The notes below the pieces were generated by a model. That model made no database searches, was not told the origin of the DNA, and saw nothing but the letters and a program-made list of their open reading frames with translations. The position numbers and the translations under genes were made by a program. From Phreatobacter sp. (GTDB lineage Bacteria; Pseudomonadota; Alphaproteobacteria; Rhizobiales; Phreatobacteraceae), in NCBI GenBank assembly GCA_019749835.1, contig JAIEPJ010000021.1, forward strand, positions 1 through 59,293: a stretch of DNA of 59,293 bases. Direction: 5' to 3'. The first letter of the stretch is position 1. Each line of letters opens with the position of its first letter. Below, one piece after another: positions 17,035 to 31,268 of the stretch.

Positions 17035-18552
17035 TCAGCCGCCGTAGATGCCCTTGTAGGTCTCGCGCAGGACGTTCTTCTGCACCTTGCCCATGGTGTT
17101 GCGCGGCAGGTCATCGACGATGATGACCTTCTTCGGCAGCTTGAACTTGGCGAGGCGGGCCTCGAGGGCATGAAGGATGGCGCCCGCGTCCAGCGTCGCG
17201 CCTGGCACGGGCACCACCACGGCCGTGACGCCCTCGCCGAAATCGGGATGGGGGACGCCGATCACGGCGCTCTCGAAGACGCCGACCATGCCGTCGATCT
17301 CCGTCTCCACTTCTTTCGGGTAGACGTTGTAGCCGCCGGAAATGACGAGGTCCTTGCCGCGCCCGACGATATGGACATAGCCGTCGGCGTCGATCTTGCC
17401 GAGGTCGCCGGTGATGAAGAAGCCGTCCGCGCGGAATTCGGCAGCGGTCTTCTCCGGCATGCGCCAGTAGCCCTTGAAGACATTCGGCCCCTTGACCTCG
17501 ATCATGCCGATCTCGCCCTTCGCCACCTCGGTGCCGGTCTCCGGATCGGTGACGCGCAGCGAGACGCCCGGCAGCGGGAATCCGACGGTGCCCGCGACGC
17601 GCGCACCGTCATAGGGGTTCGAGGTGTTCATGTTCGTCTCGGTCATGCCGTAGCGCTCGAGGATCGCCTGACCAGTCATTTCCTTGAAGGCGCGGTGAGT
17701 CTCCGCGAGCAGCGGCGCCGAGCCGGAGATGAACAGGCGCATGTGGCGCGTCGCGCCGGGGGTGAGGCGCTTGTCCTGCACCAGACGCACGTAGAAGGTC
17801 GGAACGCCCATCATCGTCGTGGCGCGCGGCAGCAGTTCGAACACTTTGTCGGCGTCGAACTTCGGCAGGAACAGCATGGTCGCCCCCGCCATCAGGATTG
17901 TGTTGGTGGCGACGAACAGGCCATGGGTATGGAAGATCGGCAAGGCGTGCAGGAGCACGTCGTCGCGGGTGAAATGCCAGTAGTCCTTCAGGGTCAGCGC
18001 ATTGGAGGCGAGGTTGTCGTGAGTCAGCATGGCGCCCTTGGAACGCCCCGTCGTGCCCGACGTGTAGAGGATGGCGGCCAGATCGTCGGCGCCGCGCGTC
18101 ACCGTGTCGAAGACCGGCTCTTCGGCGAGCGCCTTCTGCCACAGCGAACCGTCCTTCCCCCGGCCGAGCGTCTCCACCGCCGGCACGCCGGTGCGGGCCG
18201 CCACTTCGGCGACGCCCTCGCGGCGGGAGGGATCACAGACCACCATTGCCGGCTCGGCATCGGAAAGGAAATATTCGATCTCCGCGAGCGTGTAGCCGGT
18301 GTTGAGCGGCAGGAAGACCGCACCGGCCCTCACGCAGGCGAGATAGAGGAAGATGGCGCCTGGCGACTTTTCCACCTGCACCGCCACCCGGTCACCGGGC
18401 TTCACGCCAGCCGCCACAAGCGCATTGGCGAAACAGCCGGTCGCTGCGAACAGGTCCTCATAGGTGAAGACCGTCCCGTCCTCGGTCTCGATGAAGGTCT
18501 TGGTCGAATCGGTGCCAAAGAGGCGAACGAGATCGAAGAGATGATTGGCCAT
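17035..18552 (-). CDS. matB: Malonyl-CoA synthase (acyl-CoA synthetase family)
   Basis: A 505-residue ANL-superfamily enzyme that activates malonate with ATP and CoA. Motifs include ILYTSGTTGRSKG (near 160), the adenylate-binding YGMTETNMNTSNP and the hinge GRGKDLVISGGYNVYP; LPRNTMGKVQKN holds the catalytic Lys. The SAPLL, TNMNTSNPYDG and overall length match rhizobial MatB closely as I recall the Rhodopseudomonas enzyme. No malonate decarboxylase or transporter gene stands beside it. It follows the Amt-kinase gene by 99 bases on the same strand. Confidence 0.88.
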   Translation of the reverse strand: MANHLFDLVRLFGTDSTKTFIETEDGTVFTYEDLFAATGCFANALVAAGVKPGDRVAVQVEKSPGAIFLYLACVRAGAVFLPLNTGYTLAEIEYFLSDAEPAMVVCDPSRREGVAEVAARTGVPAVETLGRGKDGSLWQKALAEEPVFDTVTRGADDLAAILYTSGTTGRSKGAMLTHDNLASNALTLKDYWHFTRDDVLLHALPIFHTHGLFVATNTILMAGATMLFLPKFDADKVFELLPRATTMMGVPTFYVRLVQDKRLTPGATRHMRLFISGSAPLLAETHRAFKEMTGQAILERYGMTETNMNTSNPYDGARVAGTVGFPLPGVSLRVTDPETGTEVAKGEIGMIEVKGPNVFKGYWRMPEKTAAEFRADGFFITGDLGKIDADGYVHIVGRGKDLVISGGYNVYPKEVETEIDGMVGVFESAVIGVPHPDFGEGVTAVVVPVPGATLDAGAILHALEARLAKFKLPKKVIIVDDLPRNTMGKVQKNVLRETYKGIYGG

Positions 18553-18651: not shown

Positions 18652-20856
18652 TCAGCCGGCAAGCACCAGCGGCTTGCCGAGGTGGTCAGCGCTGATGGTG
18701 GCGCGAACCTGCGTACCCGCCCCTGGCTTGGATCGGATGGTCAGTGCCCCGCCATGCAGGTCGATCAGCTTTTTCACGAGGGCAAGCCCCAGCTCGGCTC
18801 CTTCGCCCTCGACTTCCGCCAGCGGGTCGAGGGCCTGCGCCAACTGCCCCGGTGAGACGCCGTCGCCGGAATCGACCACGTCGAGCACCAGTTCGCCGCC
18901 GGGACCCTGCTTGACGGAAACGTTGACGATGCCGCCACGGGGGGTGGTGGCGATGGCGTTGTTGACGAGTTCGCCCATGATCTTGCGCATCGCCACCGCA
19001 TTGGCGGTCATGGTGGAGACTTCTGGGGTCCATACCACCCGGAACTTGACGCCCTTCGATTCGGCCCGCGGCCGGCACAGCAGGTTGACCTCGCCGATGA
19101 GCTTTTCCATCGGCGCCTGATCGCCGGTGGGCGGCGCCTCGATGGCGGAGGCCTGGGCGTAGTCGAGCACGTCGGCGAGACGGCGGGCCAGCCTGGCCGA
19201 TTCCTCCCGCGCCGCATCGATCAGCGCATCGATGTCGTCCTGGTGGCGGCTCGACGCGGCGCGCCGCGCCATCAGGTGCAGCCGTTCGATCGGCTGGCGG
19301 AACGTGCGGCCGATCAGCCGCACCAGTCCGGAGCGCACGCCCTTGAGGTTTTCGACGGCGATCAGCGAGCGGGCGACTTGGTCGGTCAGGAAGGCGACCT
19401 CGCGCGTCGCCGAATCGAGCTTGAGTTCGCGCTCCTGCACGTCGCCGGCGAGTTGGGCATTGAGGTCGTTGGCCTGCTCCGCAGCCGCCTCGGCAAGCGA
19501 GAGCTTTTCCTTCACGCCCTTGATCTGCGCCTGGAAAATATCGACCGCACGGTTGTATTCGCGGGCGATCTGGCCGAGTTCACCGTCGGAATCGGCTTCC
19601 AGATAGGCGAAGGCGCCGGCATTGAGGTTGAGGGCGCCGAGCTGGCTCACCAGCATGGCAACGTCCGTCGTCATGGCATGCTCGGTGACGTTGAGGCCGA
19701 TACGCTCCTCTTCGGGGCCCACCCTCAGACGGATGAGATGGTGCAGGCCGAACGCTGCCGCGCCCATGACCGCCGCCGACCAGGCGACGATGGCGAGCAG
19801 ACCGACGGCCTGCAGGGTCAGGGTCGCGACCAGAGTGTCGGGCAGGCAGAGGGCGACGGCCAGAACGCCGAGCATCCCGGGAAAGAGATGAGCGGAGGCG
19901 ATGCCGAGGGCATCGTCGATCTCGAGCTTTTCGAGCGCCCGCGCGCCAGCTAGCGCCACTGCCGCGCCCGCCGCCCCGAGCCCGATCGCGCCGAGCGGGT
20001 GCAGCAGGTGGGCCGCCGCCGAGGCCGCCACGACCCCAGCCAGCGTCGCATGGATGATGTGGACGACAGTGACACGCGAGGGGCGGATCTGGTTGGCCAG
20101 GAAGGTCGCGGTGATCGCCGCGGCGCCGGCGAGGACCAGATTGATCACGACGGGAGCGATGGCGATGCCTGCGGCCATCGCCTGACCGATGGCGATGCCG
20201 AACCAGCCGAGCCACAGCAGCATCACGCCGAGGGCGGCGAAGGGAAAGCTCTGGCTCTGCACCACGAGGCTGCGCCGGGTACCATTGAACCGGCCGGTCC
20301 GTGCGCCGACGGCATGGGCGGCCACCAGCGCGGCGGTGCCGCCGGCGACATGGATGACCCCGCCGCCGGCGAGGTCAATGAAGCCGAGGCCCTTGAGCCA
20401 GCCGGCGGTCTCGCCCTGGGCCCAGGCCCAGTGCATGACGAGGGGCAGCACGCCGAGGCTGAACACCGCCACCAGCGCTGCATAGCCGCGCAGCGTCGTG
20501 CGTTCCGCCAGTGGTCCTGACAGGAGAGTCGCCGCGGCGCAGGCGATGGCGAGTGCGAAGACGAGGTCCGATCCGCCGTCGGCGGGCATGAAAGGGCCAG
20601 TGCCGGCAAGGGGGCCTCCGGCGTTCATGATGCCATACCCCGCCGCCCAGACGATGAGGACCGTGACACCGACCTGGACGAGGAGCTTGGCAGCGGCGTT
20701 GACGCTGTGCTTGGCGCGCACCAGGCCGCTTTCCAGCGTGACGTGGCCGGCAAGGACGAGGAACACGCAGAGCGCGATGATGACGGGCCAGAGCAGATCT
20801 TGCGGCGTCGGAGGCATCATGAAACCGGTGGCGAGACGCATCGCTCGCCGTCGCAC
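18652..20856 (-). CDS. Ammonium transporter domain fused to degenerate histidine kinase
   Basis: A 734-residue fusion (numbered from the GTG at 20856; ATGs at 20841 and 20820 are other starts). Residues 20-395 are an Amt domain with about eleven membrane segments: SGLVRAKH, GPLAERTTL, DLAGGGVIHV (Asp161, His169) and the Amt C-terminal signature RVGPEEERIGLNVTEH. The second pore histidine of AmtB (His318) is Ala320, and the gate phenylalanines are Ile104 and Ile221. A HAMP-like stretch (DGELGQIAREYNRAV, about 425-440) and a coiled coil lead to a kinase core. In the dimerisation helix the H-box reads GRTFRQPI, with Arg517 where His is expected. ATP-binding motifs remain: VNNAIATTP, DSGDGVS, ELGLALVKK. 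Probably an ammonium receptor; transport and autophosphorylation both look doubtful. Confidence 0.85.
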   Translation of the reverse strand: MRRRAMRLATGFMMPPTPQDLLWPVIIALCVFLVLAGHVTLESGLVRAKHSVNAAAKLLVQVGVTVLIVWAAGYGIMNAGGPLAGTGPFMPADGGSDLVFALAIACAAATLLSGPLAERTTLRGYAALVAVFSLGVLPLVMHWAWAQGETAGWLKGLGFIDLAGGGVIHVAGGTAALVAAHAVGARTGRFNGTRRSLVVQSQSFPFAALGVMLLWLGWFGIAIGQAMAAGIAIAPVVINLVLAGAAAITATFLANQIRPSRVTVVHIIHATLAGVVAASAAAHLLHPLGAIGLGAAGAAVALAGARALEKLEIDDALGIASAHLFPGMLGVLAVALCLPDTLVATLTLQAVGLLAIVAWSAAVMGAAAFGLHHLIRLRVGPEEERIGLNVTEHAMTTDVAMLVSQLGALNLNAGAFAYLEADSDGELGQIAREYNRAVDIFQAQIKGVKEKLSLAEAAAEQANDLNAQLAGDVQERELKLDSATREVAFLTDQVARSLIAVENLKGVRSGLVRLIGRTFRQPIERLHLMARRAASSRHQDDIDALIDAAREESARLARRLADVLDYAQASAIEAPPTGDQAPMEKLIGEVNLLCRPRAESKGVKFRVVWTPEVSTMTANAVAMRKIMGELVNNAIATTPRGGIVNVSVKQGPGGELVLDVVDSGDGVSPGQLAQALDPLAEVEGEGAELGLALVKKLIDLHGGALTIRSKPGAGTQVRATISADHLGKPLVLAG

Positions 20857-20929: not shown

Positions 20930-21472
20930 TCAGCTCTCCGGCATCACCCCCGGCCTGTGCCGGTCGCGCCATTCGCGCGGGCGAACGAATTCGCCAGCCC
21001 AGAGGCCCCTTCGGGCCGTCCGGGCCGAAGCCTCGTCCTGGTAGTAGGCGCCATAGGCGACGGCATGACCGGAGAGAACCTGCGCCCGTCCGAGGTCGAC
21101 ATCCTCGACGCGGCACACGGCGATGGTCCGCCCGTACTGGTCAATGTCACGACGCTCGCAGGCGAGGGACTGGCCGGCGACCATGGCGATCAGGGAACGG
21201 GCGGATTCCCGTCCGCAGCGCACATCCCGCCCCTCGCGCGTGCAGCGCTGGAAGAGTTCCGGCGCATCAATGCCGAAAAGCCTCACCTCGACTCCGGCGA
21301 CGACCAAGCTGTCACCGTCGACGATGCGCGCATAGCCGCCGAAGCTACGGCCGGCCGCGGGCCCCTGGAGAGCATGGCGGATGGCATAGGTGGTGAGCGC
21401 CGCGACAGCCAGGATAAGCCACACGAAGCCGGTGTTGGGCCGCAGGCTGCGGAAACGGGAAAAACGCAGCAT
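20930..21472 (-). CDS. Thermonuclease (SNase) family protein
   Basis: A 180-residue protein with one N-terminal membrane anchor or signal (FVWLILAVAALTTYAI) and a staphylococcal-nuclease domain: RIVDGDSL, RLFGIDAPE, CGRESARSL and DQYGRTIAVCR give the calcium and catalytic residues (Asp, Arg, Glu, Arg). It should cut DNA or RNA outside the cytoplasm, perhaps for nutrient recovery. It stands upstream of the Amt-kinase gene on the same strand, separated by 73 bases; a functional link is not evident. Confidence 0.87.
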   Translation of the reverse strand: MLRFSRFRSLRPNTGFVWLILAVAALTTYAIRHALQGPAAGRSFGGYARIVDGDSLVVAGVEVRLFGIDAPELFQRCTREGRDVRCGRESARSLIAMVAGQSLACERRDIDQYGRTIAVCRVEDVDLGRAQVLSGHAVAYGAYYQDEASARTARRGLWAGEFVRPREWRDRHRPGVMPES

Positions 21473-21605
21473 GGCGGAGCCGGAGCGGGGAATCAGGAAT
21501 GAACCAGCGTGTTCATGGTTCGTTTACCATGGATCTCGACCTGCCGTTAATCAACCTCTGCCACATTTCGACCTGAGTTGCGTTGCGTTGGAGAGGTGCC
21601 CGGGG

Positions 21606-23219
21606 ATGGGCGTGACGGCGGCAGACGGACGGCCGGACGACCGGCAGGCCGAGAAGGCGCGTGAGCAAGCCCAGAGCCGCAAGCGCGTCGTCCGTCAGGT
21701 GCGCGATGCGCGTGATCGGCTGACCTCGACCACCGGCACGAAACGCTCGTTCGAATATGAGCTGATGCGCGTCTTCGCGCAGAACAAGCGCTCGGCAGGC
21801 ATTGCCGTCGCCCTGATCGCCGTCGCCACCGGCTGGGTTGCCGGCTGGGCCACCAACCCGGCGCTCGGAGCCGCCGCGGGCCTCGTCATCCTCGTTGCCC
21901 ACGGCTTCTGCATGCTCATGGCGCGGTCCTTCCTCAAGGTCGCGCCGGACAAGGCCGATCTTGGCTCCTGGCGTCTGCGCTTCGTTATCGCCGAGGTCAT
22001 GCTCGGCCTCGCCTGGGTTCTCGCCTTCATCGTCGTCATGCGCACCGAGGTCGCCGAGGCGAGCAATTTTCTGCTCGTCGGCATGCTCATCGTCGTCGCC
22101 GTCTCGGCGATGATCGGCTCGACCCTGCCGGCCGCCGTCTTTGCCTCCTCGCTGCCCGTCGCCGGCACGGTGATCGCCTATTTTCTGCTGCTCCACGGCA
22201 TGCAGGGCGCCGTTCTCGGAGCCATGGCCCTTGGCACGCTCGTCTTCTTCGCCATCATCTCGGCGCGCCTCTACCAGACCAACCTTGCCACCATCGAGGC
22301 GCGGGCCGAGAAGGACGCGCTGATCGGCGAGTTGGAGACGGCCAAGACGAATTCCGACGAGGCCCGGCGCAATGCCGAGATGGCCAACATCGCCAAGTCG
22401 CAGTTTCTCGCCCAGATGAGCCACGAACTGCGCACGCCGCTGAACGCCATCCTCGGCTTCTCCGAGGTGATGAAGGGGGAGATGTTCGGCCCTCACTCCT
22501 CGCCGCAATATGCCGAATATGCCGGCGACATCCATTCCTCGGGCCAGCACCTGCTTTCGCTGATCAACGAGATCCTCGACCTGTCGCGCATCGAGGCGGG
22601 CCGCTACGACCTCAACGAGGAGGCCTTGACGCTCGCCTATGTCGTCGAGGACTGCCACCACCTCCTGAAGGTACGCGCCAAGAACAAGGGCGTCGCCATC
22701 ATTGAGCGCTTCGAGGCGGACATGCCGAAGCTCTGGGCCGACGAGCGGTCGATCCGGCAGATCGTGCTCAATCTGATGTCCAACGCCATCAAATTCACCC
22801 CGCTTGGCGGCGAGATCACCCTGAAGGTCGGCTGGACGGCATCGGGCGGGCAATATATCGCGGTGAAGGATACCGGCCCCGGCATTCCCGAGGACGAGAT
22901 TCCGATCGTCCTGTCGAACTTCGGCCAGGGCTCCAACGCGATCAAGAATGCCGAGCAGGGCACCGGCCTTGGACTGCCCATCGTCCAGGGCCTGGTCTCC
23001 ATGCATGGCGGCACCTTCACGCTCAAGTCGACCGTGCGAATCGGTACCGAAGTGACCGTGACTTTCCCCGCGGAACGGGTGATGGAGGCGCTGCCGGCCA
23101 TCGCCAGTCCGCCCGTCGTCGCGCCCATCGAAATTCCCATGGCCGAGGAGCCGATGCCCGCCGCCATGGTGCAGAATGTCGGAGCGCTCCGCCGTGCCCT
23201 GTTCGGGCCGCGCCGCTGA
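21606..23219 (+). CDS. Membrane sensor histidine kinase, PleC/DivJ/PdhS-like
   Basis: A 537-residue kinase. After a basic N-terminus there are about six hydrophobic segments (roughly 65-225), then a short coiled coil and an intact kinase core: H-box MSHELRTPLNAI (His273), N-box LNLMSNAIKFTP, G1 DTGPGIP and G2 GTGLGLPIV. The phrase GFSEVMKGEMFGP after the H-box is typical of alphaproteobacterial PleC/DivJ/PdhS kinases that act on DivK and PleD to time division. The ATG at 21606 is chosen because upstream codons are not protein-like. No response regulator lies nearby, as usual for this group. Confidence 0.88.
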   Translation: MGVTAADGRPDDRQAEKAREQAQSRKRVVRQVRDARDRLTSTTGTKRSFEYELMRVFAQNKRSAGIAVALIAVATGWVAGWATNPALGAAAGLVILVAHGFCMLMARSFLKVAPDKADLGSWRLRFVIAEVMLGLAWVLAFIVVMRTEVAEASNFLLVGMLIVVAVSAMIGSTLPAAVFASSLPVAGTVIAYFLLLHGMQGAVLGAMALGTLVFFAIISARLYQTNLATIEARAEKDALIGELETAKTNSDEARRNAEMANIAKSQFLAQMSHELRTPLNAILGFSEVMKGEMFGPHSSPQYAEYAGDIHSSGQHLLSLINEILDLSRIEAGRYDLNEEALTLAYVVEDCHHLLKVRAKNKGVAIIERFEADMPKLWADERSIRQIVLNLMSNAIKFTPLGGEITLKVGWTASGGQYIAVKDTGPGIPEDEIPIVLSNFGQGSNAIKNAEQGTGLGLPIVQGLVSMHGGTFTLKSTVRIGTEVTVTFPAERVMEALPAIASPPVVAPIEIPMAEEPMPAAMVQNVGALRRALFGPRR

Positions 23220-28231: not shown

Positions 28232-30250
28232 TCAGTTGCGCGGCGCCGGTGGCGGCTCCAGCCCGGGCGGCGGTCCGCCGAGGCCGGGTGGCGGGCCACC
28301 AAGACCCGGAGGCGGTCCACCCAGGCCCGGTAAGCCGCCCGGCGCATCGAAGCTCGGCAGGCCGCCGCCCAGGCCGGGCAACTCGATCCGGATATCGACC
28401 TTCGAGGGATCGACGGTCGAAACCGCGCCCTTGTAGTGCATGACCATGCTGGGGAAGGCGATGACCAGAGCCACCATGATGCATTGGATGACGACGAAGG
28501 GCACCGCTCCCCAGTAGATCTGCATGGTGGTAACGGGCTCCATGCGGAGGCCTGTTATCTTGTCGACATAGGCCTCTTTTGGCGCCACGGATCGCAGATA
28601 GAACAAGGCGAAGCCGAAGGGCGGGTGCATGAAGCTCGTCTGCATGTTGACCGCGAGGATCACGCCGAACCAGATCAGGTCGATGCCGAGTTTCTCGGCG
28701 GCAGGGCCAAGCAGTGGCACGACGATGAAGGCCAGCTCGAAGAAGTCGAGGAAGAAGGCCAGCAGGAAGACCATGATGTTGACGACGATCAGGAAGCCCG
28801 CCTGACCGCCCGGCAGGGAGACGAGCAGATGCTCGACCCAGATGTGGCCGTTCACACCGTAGAAGGTCAGCGAGAAGACGCGGGCGCCGACCAGGATGAA
28901 CAACACGAAAGCGGACAGCTTGGCTGTTGACTCCGTCGCCTGGCGGACGAGGTCAAAGGTCAGTCGCCGCTTGATTATGGCCAGGATCATCGCACCCGCC
29001 GCGCCCATGGCGCCGCCTTCGGTCGGCGTCGCGAGGCCGATGAAGATCGTGCCCAGGACCAGGAAGATCAGGCCGAGCGGCGGCACCATGACGAAGGTGA
29101 CCTGCTCGGCGATGGGCGAGATCATCTTGAAATTGCCGAAGCGCTCGATGAGGCCGACCACGATCGCATAGCCGAAGCCGAAGGCGGCGGCTTCGGCGAT
29201 CAGTGACCAGACCTGGTAACCACCCTGCTTCAGGAAGAAGTAGGCGACCATGAGGGCCAGGGTGATGGCGACCGTGAGGAGCAGCCGCTGCGCGCCGAAG
29301 TAATAATTGCAGACGACGGCGATGAAGGCGACCATCACCGCCACCGACATCGCCAGGATGACGAAGTCTGCGCCGCCCCGGACGCTTGTCTGGTTCATGA
29401 TGAAGACGGCGACGATGGCCGAGACCAGGACGAGGACACCGAGCTTCCAGCTGCCGCGCTTGCCGTCGTCCTGCATGTAGAGAAGCGCTTCCTTGGGCAG
29501 GCCCGGCGCGTTCTTCGGCTGTGTCATGGTGACCAGGAAGACATAGCCCGCATAGAGCGCCGACAGCACGAGACCGGGCACGAAGGCGCCCTCATACATG
29601 TCACCGACCGAGCGTCCGAGCTGGTCTGCCATGACGATGAGGACGAGCGAGGGCGGAATGATCTGCGCCAGCGTTCCGGATGCGGCGATGACGCCGGAGG
29701 CGAGCCGGCGATCATAGCCGTAGCGCAGCATGATCGGCAGCGAGATAAGGCCCATCGAGATGACGGAGGCAGCTACGACGCCGGTCGTGGCGGCGAGCAG
29801 AGCACCGACGAAGATGACCGCATAGGCAAGGCCGCCGCGGATCGAGCCGAAGAGCTGGCCAATCGTGTCGAGCAGGTCTTCCGCCATGCCGGAGCGCTCA
29901 AGGATCAGGCCCATGAAGGTGAAGAACGGGATCGCCAGCAGCGTATCGTTGTTCATCGTCCCGTAGATGCGCTCGGGCAGCGCCTGCAGGAAGTTCGGCT
30001 GGAACAGGCCCAGTTCGATGCCGATGATGGCGAAGAACAGTCCGTTGGCCGCGAGCGCAAAGGCAACCGGGTAGCCGAGGAGCAGGAAGAAGACGAGCGC
30101 CACGAACATGACCGGTGCCATGTTGGCACGCACGAAATCGCCAAAACCGGAGCCTGTCGCTGCATGGGCCGGCTCGGCGAAGAGGGTGAGGGCGAGGAGT
30201 GTCAGGGCGGCGGCGGCGAGCGCGCCCGAGAGGGAACGGTGGATGGACAC
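28232..30250 (-). CDS. TRAP transporter large permease (DctM family), long form
   Basis: About 672 residues, against about 430 for ordinary DctM. The GTG at 30250 follows GGGAGA and begins a signal-like hydrophobic stretch ending AEPAHAA; a GTG at 30274 is possible. Membrane segments carry the family patterns GYPVAFALA, AIPFFTFMGLILERSG, IIPPSLVLIV and ATPTEGGAMGA. Extra membrane segments at about 265-380 interrupt the core. The C-terminus ends in three copies of GLGGPPP. It moves organic acids driven by sodium together with DctQ and the binding protein. Confidence 0.9.
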   Translation of the reverse strand: MSIHRSLSGALAAAALTLLALTLFAEPAHAATGSGFGDFVRANMAPVMFVALVFFLLLGYPVAFALAANGLFFAIIGIELGLFQPNFLQALPERIYGTMNNDTLLAIPFFTFMGLILERSGMAEDLLDTIGQLFGSIRGGLAYAVIFVGALLAATTGVVAASVISMGLISLPIMLRYGYDRRLASGVIAASGTLAQIIPPSLVLIVMADQLGRSVGDMYEGAFVPGLVLSALYAGYVFLVTMTQPKNAPGLPKEALLYMQDDGKRGSWKLGVLVLVSAIVAVFIMNQTSVRGGADFVILAMSVAVMVAFIAVVCNYYFGAQRLLLTVAITLALMVAYFFLKQGGYQVWSLIAEAAAFGFGYAIVVGLIERFGNFKMISPIAEQVTFVMVPPLGLIFLVLGTIFIGLATPTEGGAMGAAGAMILAIIKRRLTFDLVRQATESTAKLSAFVLFILVGARVFSLTFYGVNGHIWVEHLLVSLPGGQAGFLIVVNIMVFLLAFFLDFFELAFIVVPLLGPAAEKLGIDLIWFGVILAVNMQTSFMHPPFGFALFYLRSVAPKEAYVDKITGLRMEPVTTMQIYWGAVPFVVIQCIMVALVIAFPSMVMHYKGAVSTVDPSKVDIRIELPGLGGGLPSFDAPGGLPGLGGPPPGLGGPPPGLGGPPPGLEPPPAPRN
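28265..28327 (-). repeat. Three tandem 21-base repeats in the dctM 3' end
   Basis: The C-terminal tail of the large permease codes for GLGGPPP three times in a row, then a diverged copy GLEPPP. The units differ at a few third positions. Confidence 0.85.
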
Positions 30251-30270
30251 TGATTTTCTCCCGGTACGCG

Positions 30271-30879
30271 TCACTTCTTGGCCGCGTCGAGCAGGCCTTG
30301 TGCCTTGGCGATTTCGAGCAGCCGTGCGGCTTCCGCCTCGGCCATCTCGTGATGTCCGCCGCCATGCACGTCCTCGAGTTCACCGCGCATGATGGCGACG
30401 CGCTTGATGAGCTCGCTGATGCCCTGCAACAACAGCAGCACGAAGCCGGCCACGACGAGGAACTTGGCCGGCCAGACGACGAGGCCGCCAGCATTCATCG
30501 ACTGTTCGTTCTGCAGGTACGATTTCACGAAGAACGGCCAGCTGTCATAGAGCAGCAGGATGCAGAACGGCATCAGGAACAGGGTATGGCCGACGACGTC
30601 GATCCAGTTGCGCACCCGCTTCGAGAACAGGCTGTTCACGACGTCGATGCGGATATGTTCGTTGGCGAGCAAAGTCCAGGCCGCGCAGAGCATGAAGACC
30701 GCGCCGAACAGATACCATTGCGCCTCCAGCCAAGCGTTCGATGAACTCGAGAACACCTTGCGGATGATGGCGTTGCCGGCGGAAATGATGACAGCCACCA
30801 GGATCAGCCAGCTGGCGGCCCTGCCGATATAGGTGTTGACCGAGTCGATGACACGGCTGATCGAAAGCAGTCCCTGCAT
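30271..30879 (-). CDS. TRAP transporter small permease (DctQ family)
   Basis: The ATG at 30879 gives 202 residues with four membrane segments and the DctQ pattern EAQWYLFGAVFMLCAAWTLL and NEHIRIDVV. An upstream ATG at 30990 would add 37 basic residues without clear meaning. The C-terminus has a His/Glu-rich cytoplasmic tail (HGGGHHEMAEAE). It is first in the operon with dctM and the patatin gene; the gap to dctM is 20 bases. Together with dctM and the dctP protein it forms a TRAP carrier in the inner membrane. Confidence 0.9.
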   Translation of the reverse strand: MQGLLSISRVIDSVNTYIGRAASWLILVAVIISAGNAIIRKVFSSSSNAWLEAQWYLFGAVFMLCAAWTLLANEHIRIDVVNSLFSKRVRNWIDVVGHTLFLMPFCILLLYDSWPFFVKSYLQNEQSMNAGGLVVWPAKFLVVAGFVLLLLQGISELIKRVAIMRGELEDVHGGGHHEMAEAEAARLLEIAKAQGLLDAAKK

Positions 30880-31268
30880 GCCGGGTAGACTCCCCTGGAA
30901 GGCCCTGATCTTGCGGAGCCGCAGGAGAGGGCGCCGGGGCACCCCGCTCTCACGCATGCGAGCGGAAGACCCGCCGCCATGAAGCATCATGAAACATGTC
31001 TCACGACAATGGCCGTTCGCTACGTCATCGACGCAGCCCGCATTGTCCCTCGATCGCCCACCATGCCTGTCCCGCTGACCGACCCCGCAATTGTTGTGCG
31101 GTGACCGGTACTACGTCGAAATGTCGCACGTCCTCTATGCCACGGCTGTGGCGGGGACAATAGTGGGCGGTGGAAGATTCGGACCGGAATCCCCATCGCG
31201 TCGCAATGAAGAGCGTTATCTACCCGCACGTGGCGCCATTGTTGAGAAAACGGGCCAACGCCGCCAGA
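30880..31268. other. Intergenic region without supported gene
   Basis: About 390 bases between the dctQ start and the DMT gene end. It should hold the dctQM promoter. Short frames on both strands lack ribosome binding sites and protein-like composition. I could not recognise promoter elements or operators here. Confidence 0.5.

Follow-up and report, generated by a model that had tools for sequence, protein, structure and literature searches.

Pseudo-histidine kinases are known chiefly from DivL, an essential hub with a soluble output. According to the DivL report, DivL keeps the N, G1, F, and G2 boxes, Ala stands in the H place of one DivL, and R553, T557, Y562, and H579 are needed for binding of DivK~P (PMC4211667). 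The other closely related system is the Amt-kinase fusion Ks-Amt5 of Kuenenia, for which the published work describes a filter made of W144 and S227, a Phe gate (F103/F223), a high-affinity NH4+ site, and autophosphorylation on His (PMC5764959). At the level of search listings, no description of an Amt-linked pseudo-histidine kinase was found in the open full-text literature, and searches on Phreatobacter and on phosphatases returned nothing about the protein analyzed here.

Domain layout and H-box of the Phreatobacter fusion

We analyzed a 59,293-nucleotide stretch of Phreatobacter sp. DNA (contig JAIEPJ010000021.1 of assembly GCA_019749835.1; the window). An original prediction, made from the letters alone, held that one gene in it encodes an Amt-histidine kinase fusion whose H-box has lost its histidine. 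The layout of this protein, P0001, is given below.

18652..20856, minus strand: P0001, 734 aa, an Amt - HAMP-like/coiled-coil - DHp - CA fusion with an orthologue in 12/12 Phreatobacter genomes
19672..20793, minus strand: Amt domain (residues 22-395, Pfam); twin His H169 and H323, D161, and E42 kept in 12/12
19519..19671, minus strand: HAMP-like linker (residues 396-446), ADxDGE[LI]GQ[IV]AREYNRA; a weak assignment (Pfam HAMP E 0.34, below the cut-off)
19147..19332, minus strand: DHp helical hairpin (residues 509-570); 39/62 positions invariant in 12 genomes
19306..19308, minus strand: Arg517 codon, where a kinase has its phospho-acceptor His
19276..19278, minus strand: His527 codon, +10 from the H place; the sole invariant His of the DHp (12/12)
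18697..19101, minus strand: CA domain (residues 586-720), with a degenerate N-box, an invariant G1 DSGxG, and a short ATP lid

The length of 734 aa is counted from the GTG at 20856, and a later codon may be the true start. A Pfam scan of the whole protein matched Amt at residues 22 to 395 (E = 2.3e-68) and HATPase_c at 619 to 721 (E = 7.6e-19), with neither HisKA nor a PAS domain at E ≤ 1; an Amt domain is thus fused to a kinase core, as in Ks-Amt5-type sensors. The Amt profile score of about 231 to 234 bits, against a cut-off of 23.2, establishes membership in the Amt family, although it is lower than that of a His-bearing Amt-kinase (380 bits) and that of a second Amt protein in the same genome (376 versus 234 bits).

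The H-box of P0001 reads GRTFRQPI, and the segment LVRLIGRTFRQPIERLHLMARR puts Arg517 opposite the phospho-acceptor His. We based this register on a HisKA profile match, on the spacing, and on the shared R520 and P522, which are the +3 and +5 residues of HELRTP and are invariant in Phreatobacter. When the DHp-CA core of P0001 was scanned alone, a sub-threshold HisKA match emerged (E = 0.075; 13.5 bits versus a cut-off of 26.9), and profile position 11 fell on Arg517 of P0001 and on His319 of P0002, an intact neighboring kinase. Weak HisKA matches were obtained for 7 of the 12 Phreatobacter members (best E, 0.06) and none of the 12 passed the cut-off, whereas the control, 21 scanned Amt-kinases of other orders, matched HisKA without exception (E ≤ 0.01). 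A forced global profile alignment likewise set R517 opposite the His; a local profile alignment of the core covered helix 2 alone (25 columns, probability 10%). Plain multiple alignment (MAFFT) left the H-boxes unaligned and slid SHELRTP onto the upstream REVAFLTDQ, a register that would give a far overlong DHp hairpin. Two AlphaFold models, each built from only five close sequences and hence of low confidence (mean pLDDT, 56.4 and 63.6), place R517 within DHp helix 1.

The Phreatobacter set comprised 12 genomes, the genus being the whole family as sampled. The gene is present in all 12, single-contig assemblies among them, at 60 to 100% identity and with no internal stops. Arg517 occurs in every one, encoded by AGA, CGA, CGC, or CGG, and four codons for an invariant residue argue against sequencing error. 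Thus, the predicted loss of the His, with Arg in its place, was borne out by the profile register and by 12/12 genomes, and the proposed survey of close relatives found none in the genus that retains His. All but one position of GRTFRxPIERLH are invariant, with G516, T518, F519, R520, and P522 to H527 fixed in the 12 genomes. Mean pairwise identity was highest for the DHp (0.85), followed by the HAMP-like linker (0.80), CA (0.73), Amt (0.67), and the coil (0.64). In seven close pairs, whole-gene dN/dS was about 0.055 to 0.22, and that of the DHp was 0.00 to 0.05. Judged by these sequences, the gene is under purifying selection, which is strongest on the DHp. A sequencing error, a chimera, or a decaying gene could be argued from the long stem branches of the Amt tree (2.31 changes per column) and of the CA tree, which signify fast past change, and from a relative in another family (G585, below) that is split in two frames. 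However, the frame is open in 12/12 genomes, single-contig assemblies included, dN/dS is low, and R517 is kept through synonymous change; by the pattern of conservation this reading is already refuted, and we leave it next to no probability.

Ammonium-sensing and ATP-binding residues

A search of 385 genomes of the class (E ≤ 1e-50) yielded 27 further loci, 25 encoding Amt-kinases and 2 with other tails; they are spread over 26 genomes, all from outside the order of Phreatobacter. The two non-kinase loci (L039 and L048) were set aside, with their tails judged EAL/GGDEF and chemotaxis-receptor by eye. The 25 Amt-kinases of other orders are 28 to 32% identical to P0001 and share its domain order and the linker motif GLNxxEH. 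Unlike P0001, they have kept the N-box along with the ammonium-site residues counted below, and their H-box, with its His, reads SHELRTPLNA in 25/25. The comparison with Amt-kinases that the original prediction had called for thus set SHELRTP in all 25 against GRTFRQPI in P0001. Amt domains fused to GGDEF/EAL-looking and chemotaxis-receptor-looking tails were seen at L107 (G058) and at L048 and L039 (G326); the Amt fold serves many outputs.

Among solved structures, the best match for the Amt part of P0001 was 8qj3/8qpf (E = 4.4e-48), entries named 'Ammonium transporter' (644 and 661 aa) and compared by entry name and length alone; Ks-Amt5 (PDB 6eu6) ranked third (E = 6.5e-46). Ks-Amt5 positions were mapped onto P0001 via the phmmer alignment to 6eu6 and counted over the 12 Phreatobacter proteins and the 25 Amt-kinases. 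Like Ks-Amt5, P0001 joins Amt to DHp-CA and keeps the His pair and the E31 equivalent, as do all 12 Phreatobacter proteins. Unlike Ks-Amt5, it is without the filter Ser, the Phe gate, the Q24, N47, and D50 equivalents, and the H-box His. The filter Ser (S227 equivalent; Q225 in the window) is replaced by Gln in 11 Phreatobacter proteins and by Lys in 1, and the filter Trp (W144 equivalent) is kept in 10/12. At the gate, the F103 equivalent (I104 in the window) is I, L, or V in 12/12, and the F223 equivalent (I221) is I or V in 10 and F in 2. The NH4+ ligands Q24, N47, and D50, whose equivalents in the window are L35, L58, and Q61, are gone from all 12. At these ten positions all the Amt-kinases, on the other hand, retain Q, E, N, D, F, F, W, S, H, and H. 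Because the Amt-kinases do not have T51 and Y30 either, these two were left out of the loss count. Moreover, at 31 of 110 Amt columns that are near-invariant in Amt-kinases, that residue is found in 0/12 Phreatobacter proteins. Ammonium appears doubtful as a ligand of P0001, in which the filter Ser, Phe gate, and Ks-Amt5 sensing site have largely been lost; with most sensing residues replaced, the view of the Amt half as an ammonium sensor is not supported. The Gln at the filter position (Lys in one species) may be a built-in occupant. In the protein with Lys rather than Gln (G065, locus L009), the side chain would bring an ammonium group of its own to the ammonium site.

The ATP-binding half had been described as well conserved, a description that fits the G1 box and fails for the N-box. 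The DSGxG of G1 is invariant and HATPase_c is matched in 12/12 Phreatobacter proteins, and these features, along with a fold search on the model of pLDDT 63.6, identify a class I DHp-CA fold; in the alignment, the ATP lid of P0001 is short. In the N-box, the first Asn is Glu in 12/12 (E629), the second (N633) is N in 6, the window included, H in 4, and T in 2, and the Lys is replaced in 12/12, so that the N-x-x-x-N of HisKA-type kinases is not found in Phreatobacter; N, N, and K are intact in 25/25 His-bearing Amt-kinases. The G199 orthologue (metagenome assembly; LNFH01000426.1) has an in-frame loss of 11 residues just before the N-box, corresponding to residues 615 to 625 of the window protein. 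Nucleotide may still bind P0001, since the Asp and Gly of G1 are kept, and the intact G1 box together with the second N-box Asn in 6/12 would leave ATP binding possible. Mg-ATP catalysis, judged from the same residues, is doubtful.

By the chemistry of the His loss, P0001 would not autophosphorylate at its H-box, and we infer that kinase activity is absent altogether. P0001 might instead still be a kinase, either with His527 or some other residue as its acceptor or one that phosphorylates in trans. The invariance of H527 in 12/12, the intact G1 box, and the HATPase_c matches in 12/12 are in keeping with such activity; however, H527 lies 10 residues past the H place and, by heptad reasoning, off the helix face, and the residue after it is L or A, so that an acidic neighbor is missing. 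The altered N-box and the lack of H527 in relatives from other families also argue against it, and we regard continued kinase activity as highly unlikely. Many HisKA kinases double as phosphatases, usually through an E/DxxT/N motif, and a phosphatase for a response regulator was among the roles first suggested for P0001. In the Phreatobacter proteins, however, position +1 from the H place is Thr, not Glu or Asp, and +4 is Q, A, or P, not Thr or Asn, so that the motif site reads T-F-R-[Q/A/P]; furthermore, the contig carries no regulator. The phosphatase option is accordingly disfavored, with only a very slim chance of being right.

Relatives of P0001 and comparison with DivL

In 199 genomes of the order, a search at E ≤ 1e-60 gave 8 matches, namely, 7 Phreatobacter genomes (window included) and G095, which belongs to another family. 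Within that family (f11; 20 genomes), G095 has the architecture, G585 has a relative split in two frames (L106 and L108; ORFs of 451 and 707 aa), and G058 has other Amt proteins. The H-box His is absent from both G095 and G585 (NQLVGRLVRDLD and NLLTANFVRDIE), and G095 retains the ammonium-site residues. G608, from a third family, emerged from a profile search of the order (297 genomes); its H-box reads LHGAFEAPI, in which a His immediately precedes the H position. The Amt domain at the G608 locus (L134:7890-10139) is very divergent (PF00909, 136 bits). His527 is absent from the relatives in other families. A C-terminal profile was run against the order (297 genomes, E ≤ 1e-24, at most the 6 best candidates scored per genome), where it matched the 12 Phreatobacter genomes and G608 only, and against the class (385 genomes, E ≤ 1e-28, at most the 5 best candidates scored per genome), where its one match was the window's own genome. 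G095 and G585 were recovered by full-length queries only, and the apparent absence elsewhere is a result for this sample. As read from these sequences, loss of the H-box His is fixed in the genus, common to relatives of two other families, and patchy elsewhere in the order.

The CA parts of the 12 Phreatobacter proteins and of G095, G585, and G608 form one branch in a 65-row tree (support, 100/99), and in an 82-row tree the Phreatobacter and f11 transmitters join at an SH-aLRT of 80, beside a long-branched paralogue. The reduced set behind the 65-row tree and the AU tests was obtained from 83 rows by dropping 19 (long-branched paralogues, at least 6 divergent DivLs, and near-duplicates); the supports of 99 to 100 apply to this reduced set, and the AU run flagged long branches meeting.

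One explanation for these transmitters is that they descend from or copy DivL, sense DivK or another single-domain regulator in phosphorylated form, and feed CckA-CtrA. When the core profile was compared with solved sequences, DivL (4q20) came first (E = 1.1e-19), with helix 2 and CA covered and helix 1 not. A fold search with the second model (mean pLDDT, 63.6) also placed DivL first (E = 3.9e-14, 28% identity, TM of 0.53 to 0.54), and HK853 came second (E = 6.4e-13), so the lead of DivL is small. The best other match of P0001 in its own genome is DivL, a protein of 846 aa with Tyr in the H place. Like DivL, P0001 has a class I DHp-CA fold in which the His is replaced lineage-wide, an Arg at +3, a Pro at +5, and its best conservation in the DHp; R553 of DivL, needed for DivK~P binding, corresponds to the invariant R520. 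The genome also contains a DivK/PleD-like pair of ORFs (C222). On the other hand, P0001 has Arg rather than Tyr in the H place (12/12), an Amt rather than a PAS sensor, and a degenerate N-box, and the docking residues other than the Arg553 equivalent are replaced (T557 by E524 and Y562 by M529). In the reduced-set tree, 23 DivLs are separated from the 15 transmitters, which have a branch to themselves (98/95). On the reduced set, the AU test did not reject the DivL grouping (p = 0.51, or 0.71 with the f11 relatives) and rejected the Amt-kinase grouping no more (p = 0.44, or 0.67). The sequence matches made DivL descent look strong; the trees and AU tests neither established nor rejected it. 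Taken together, we consider this explanation distinctly unlikely.

Five positions of DHp helix 1 (+7, +8, +11, +12, and +15), which we take to be docking positions, read E, R, L/A, M/L, and R in the 12 Phreatobacter proteins. The same positions are N, A, G, F, and hydrophobic in the 25 Amt-kinases, and N/T, variable, G, F/Y, and hydrophobic in DivL (24 of 30 DivLs caught by the H-box pattern). The docking face is thus conserved in Phreatobacter and yet distinct from those of the other two groups, suggesting a dedicated partner that is not DivK. DivK as the partner is disfavored, the replacement of most docking residues speaking against it.

Genomic context and proposed mode of signaling

The following genes of the window bear on the choice of a partner or lie in the surroundings of P0001.

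17035-18552, minus strand: acyl-CoA-synthetase-like gene (PF00501), presumably a malonyl-CoA synthetase
20930..21472, minus strand: SNase-like gene (PF00565), 73 bp upstream of the P0001 gene; synteny in 11/11 other Phreatobacter loci
21390..23219, plus strand: P0002, an ordinary HisKA histidine kinase with MSHELRTPL, transcribed divergently from P0001; conserved part from about 21660
28232-30990, minus strand: TRAP transporter genes (DctM, DctQ)

The SNase-like protein has an N-terminal hydrophobic stretch, and its gene is possibly cotranscribed with the Amt gene. The acyl-CoA-synthetase-like and TRAP genes may hint at malonate or dicarboxylate use. As the original prediction had stated, no response regulator lies nearby: none of the genome's 45 receiver matches falls on the window's contig. 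The ordinary histidine kinase P0002, 0.5 to 0.8 kb from P0001 on the other strand, had gone unmentioned.

P0001 could pair with an ordinary kinase, most simply P0002, and tune it. The order acyl-CoA-synthetase-like gene, P0001, SNase-like gene, P0002, and GST-like gene is found together in 11/11 other Phreatobacter loci and not at G095, so that P0002 stays beside P0001 throughout the genus. There is also a precedent: in the ChrS/HrrS study, the native kinases pair and the pseudokinase raises the output of the other system, although the truncated ChrS pseudokinase gave no significant heterodimer signal (PMC9491836). However, most of the surrounding genes are syntenic as well, and in a sample of 150 genomes from the order, 119 have P0002, mostly ones in which no P0001 relative was found. 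Being order-wide, P0002 provides no evidence of partnership by its linkage, and its candidacy as a private partner is weakened. The docking positions of helix 1 differ throughout as well, with E, R, L/A, M/L, and R in P0001 against N, A, G, F, and V in P0002. Such a heterodimer therefore seems unlikely to us, though possible.

We favor the reading that P0001 is a receptor without His phosphotransfer that acts through a dedicated DHp contact, and we hold it with somewhat better than even confidence, on the strength of sequence comparison. Its signaling is probably by shape and contact rather than phosphate transfer. The Amt fold would lead through a HAMP-like helix and coiled coil to a class I DHp-CA core, which would be unable to autophosphorylate at the H-box with Arg517 replacing His and whose Mg-ATP site appears to be degrading too. 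A conformational change in the membrane part would be passed to a dedicated partner binding the DHp helices, which may be a receiver domain, an HPt, or another kinase. Constraint peaks at the DHp surface, to which Arg517 and Arg520 belong, and partner signaling is thus most likely via the DHp, by analogy to DivL, which works through its DHp. From this conservation and the DivL precedent we infer both that the DHp is the output and that a partner of the kind described exists; dimerization alone could also be the cause of the DHp conservation. Among the roles originally offered for P0001, that of an allosteric partner remains the best.

A bolder version of the contact model is tentative, and we think it possible rather than probable. 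It would have P0001 devoid of chemistry at both ends, a former ammonium sensor with a tethered Gln/Lys occupant joined to a former kinase with a fixed Arg. The device would be purely mechanical, running from an Amt trimer through the coiled coil to a DHp that docks one partner, with Arg517 making the former phospho-His contact, and the receptor family would comprise Phreatobacter and two other families.

These findings provide a second, unrelated-looking case of a pseudo-histidine kinase beside DivL, one fixed in a genus and patchy elsewhere in the order, in which the kinase part is joined to a transporter fold itself stripped of the known ligand chemistry. The natural stages run from the Amt-kinases, with everything intact, through f11, with the ammonium site kept and the His gone, to Phreatobacter, with both gone. 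With these stages one can test how a contact-only device is made out of a two-component receptor, and what role the DHp surface plays once it is free of phosphate.
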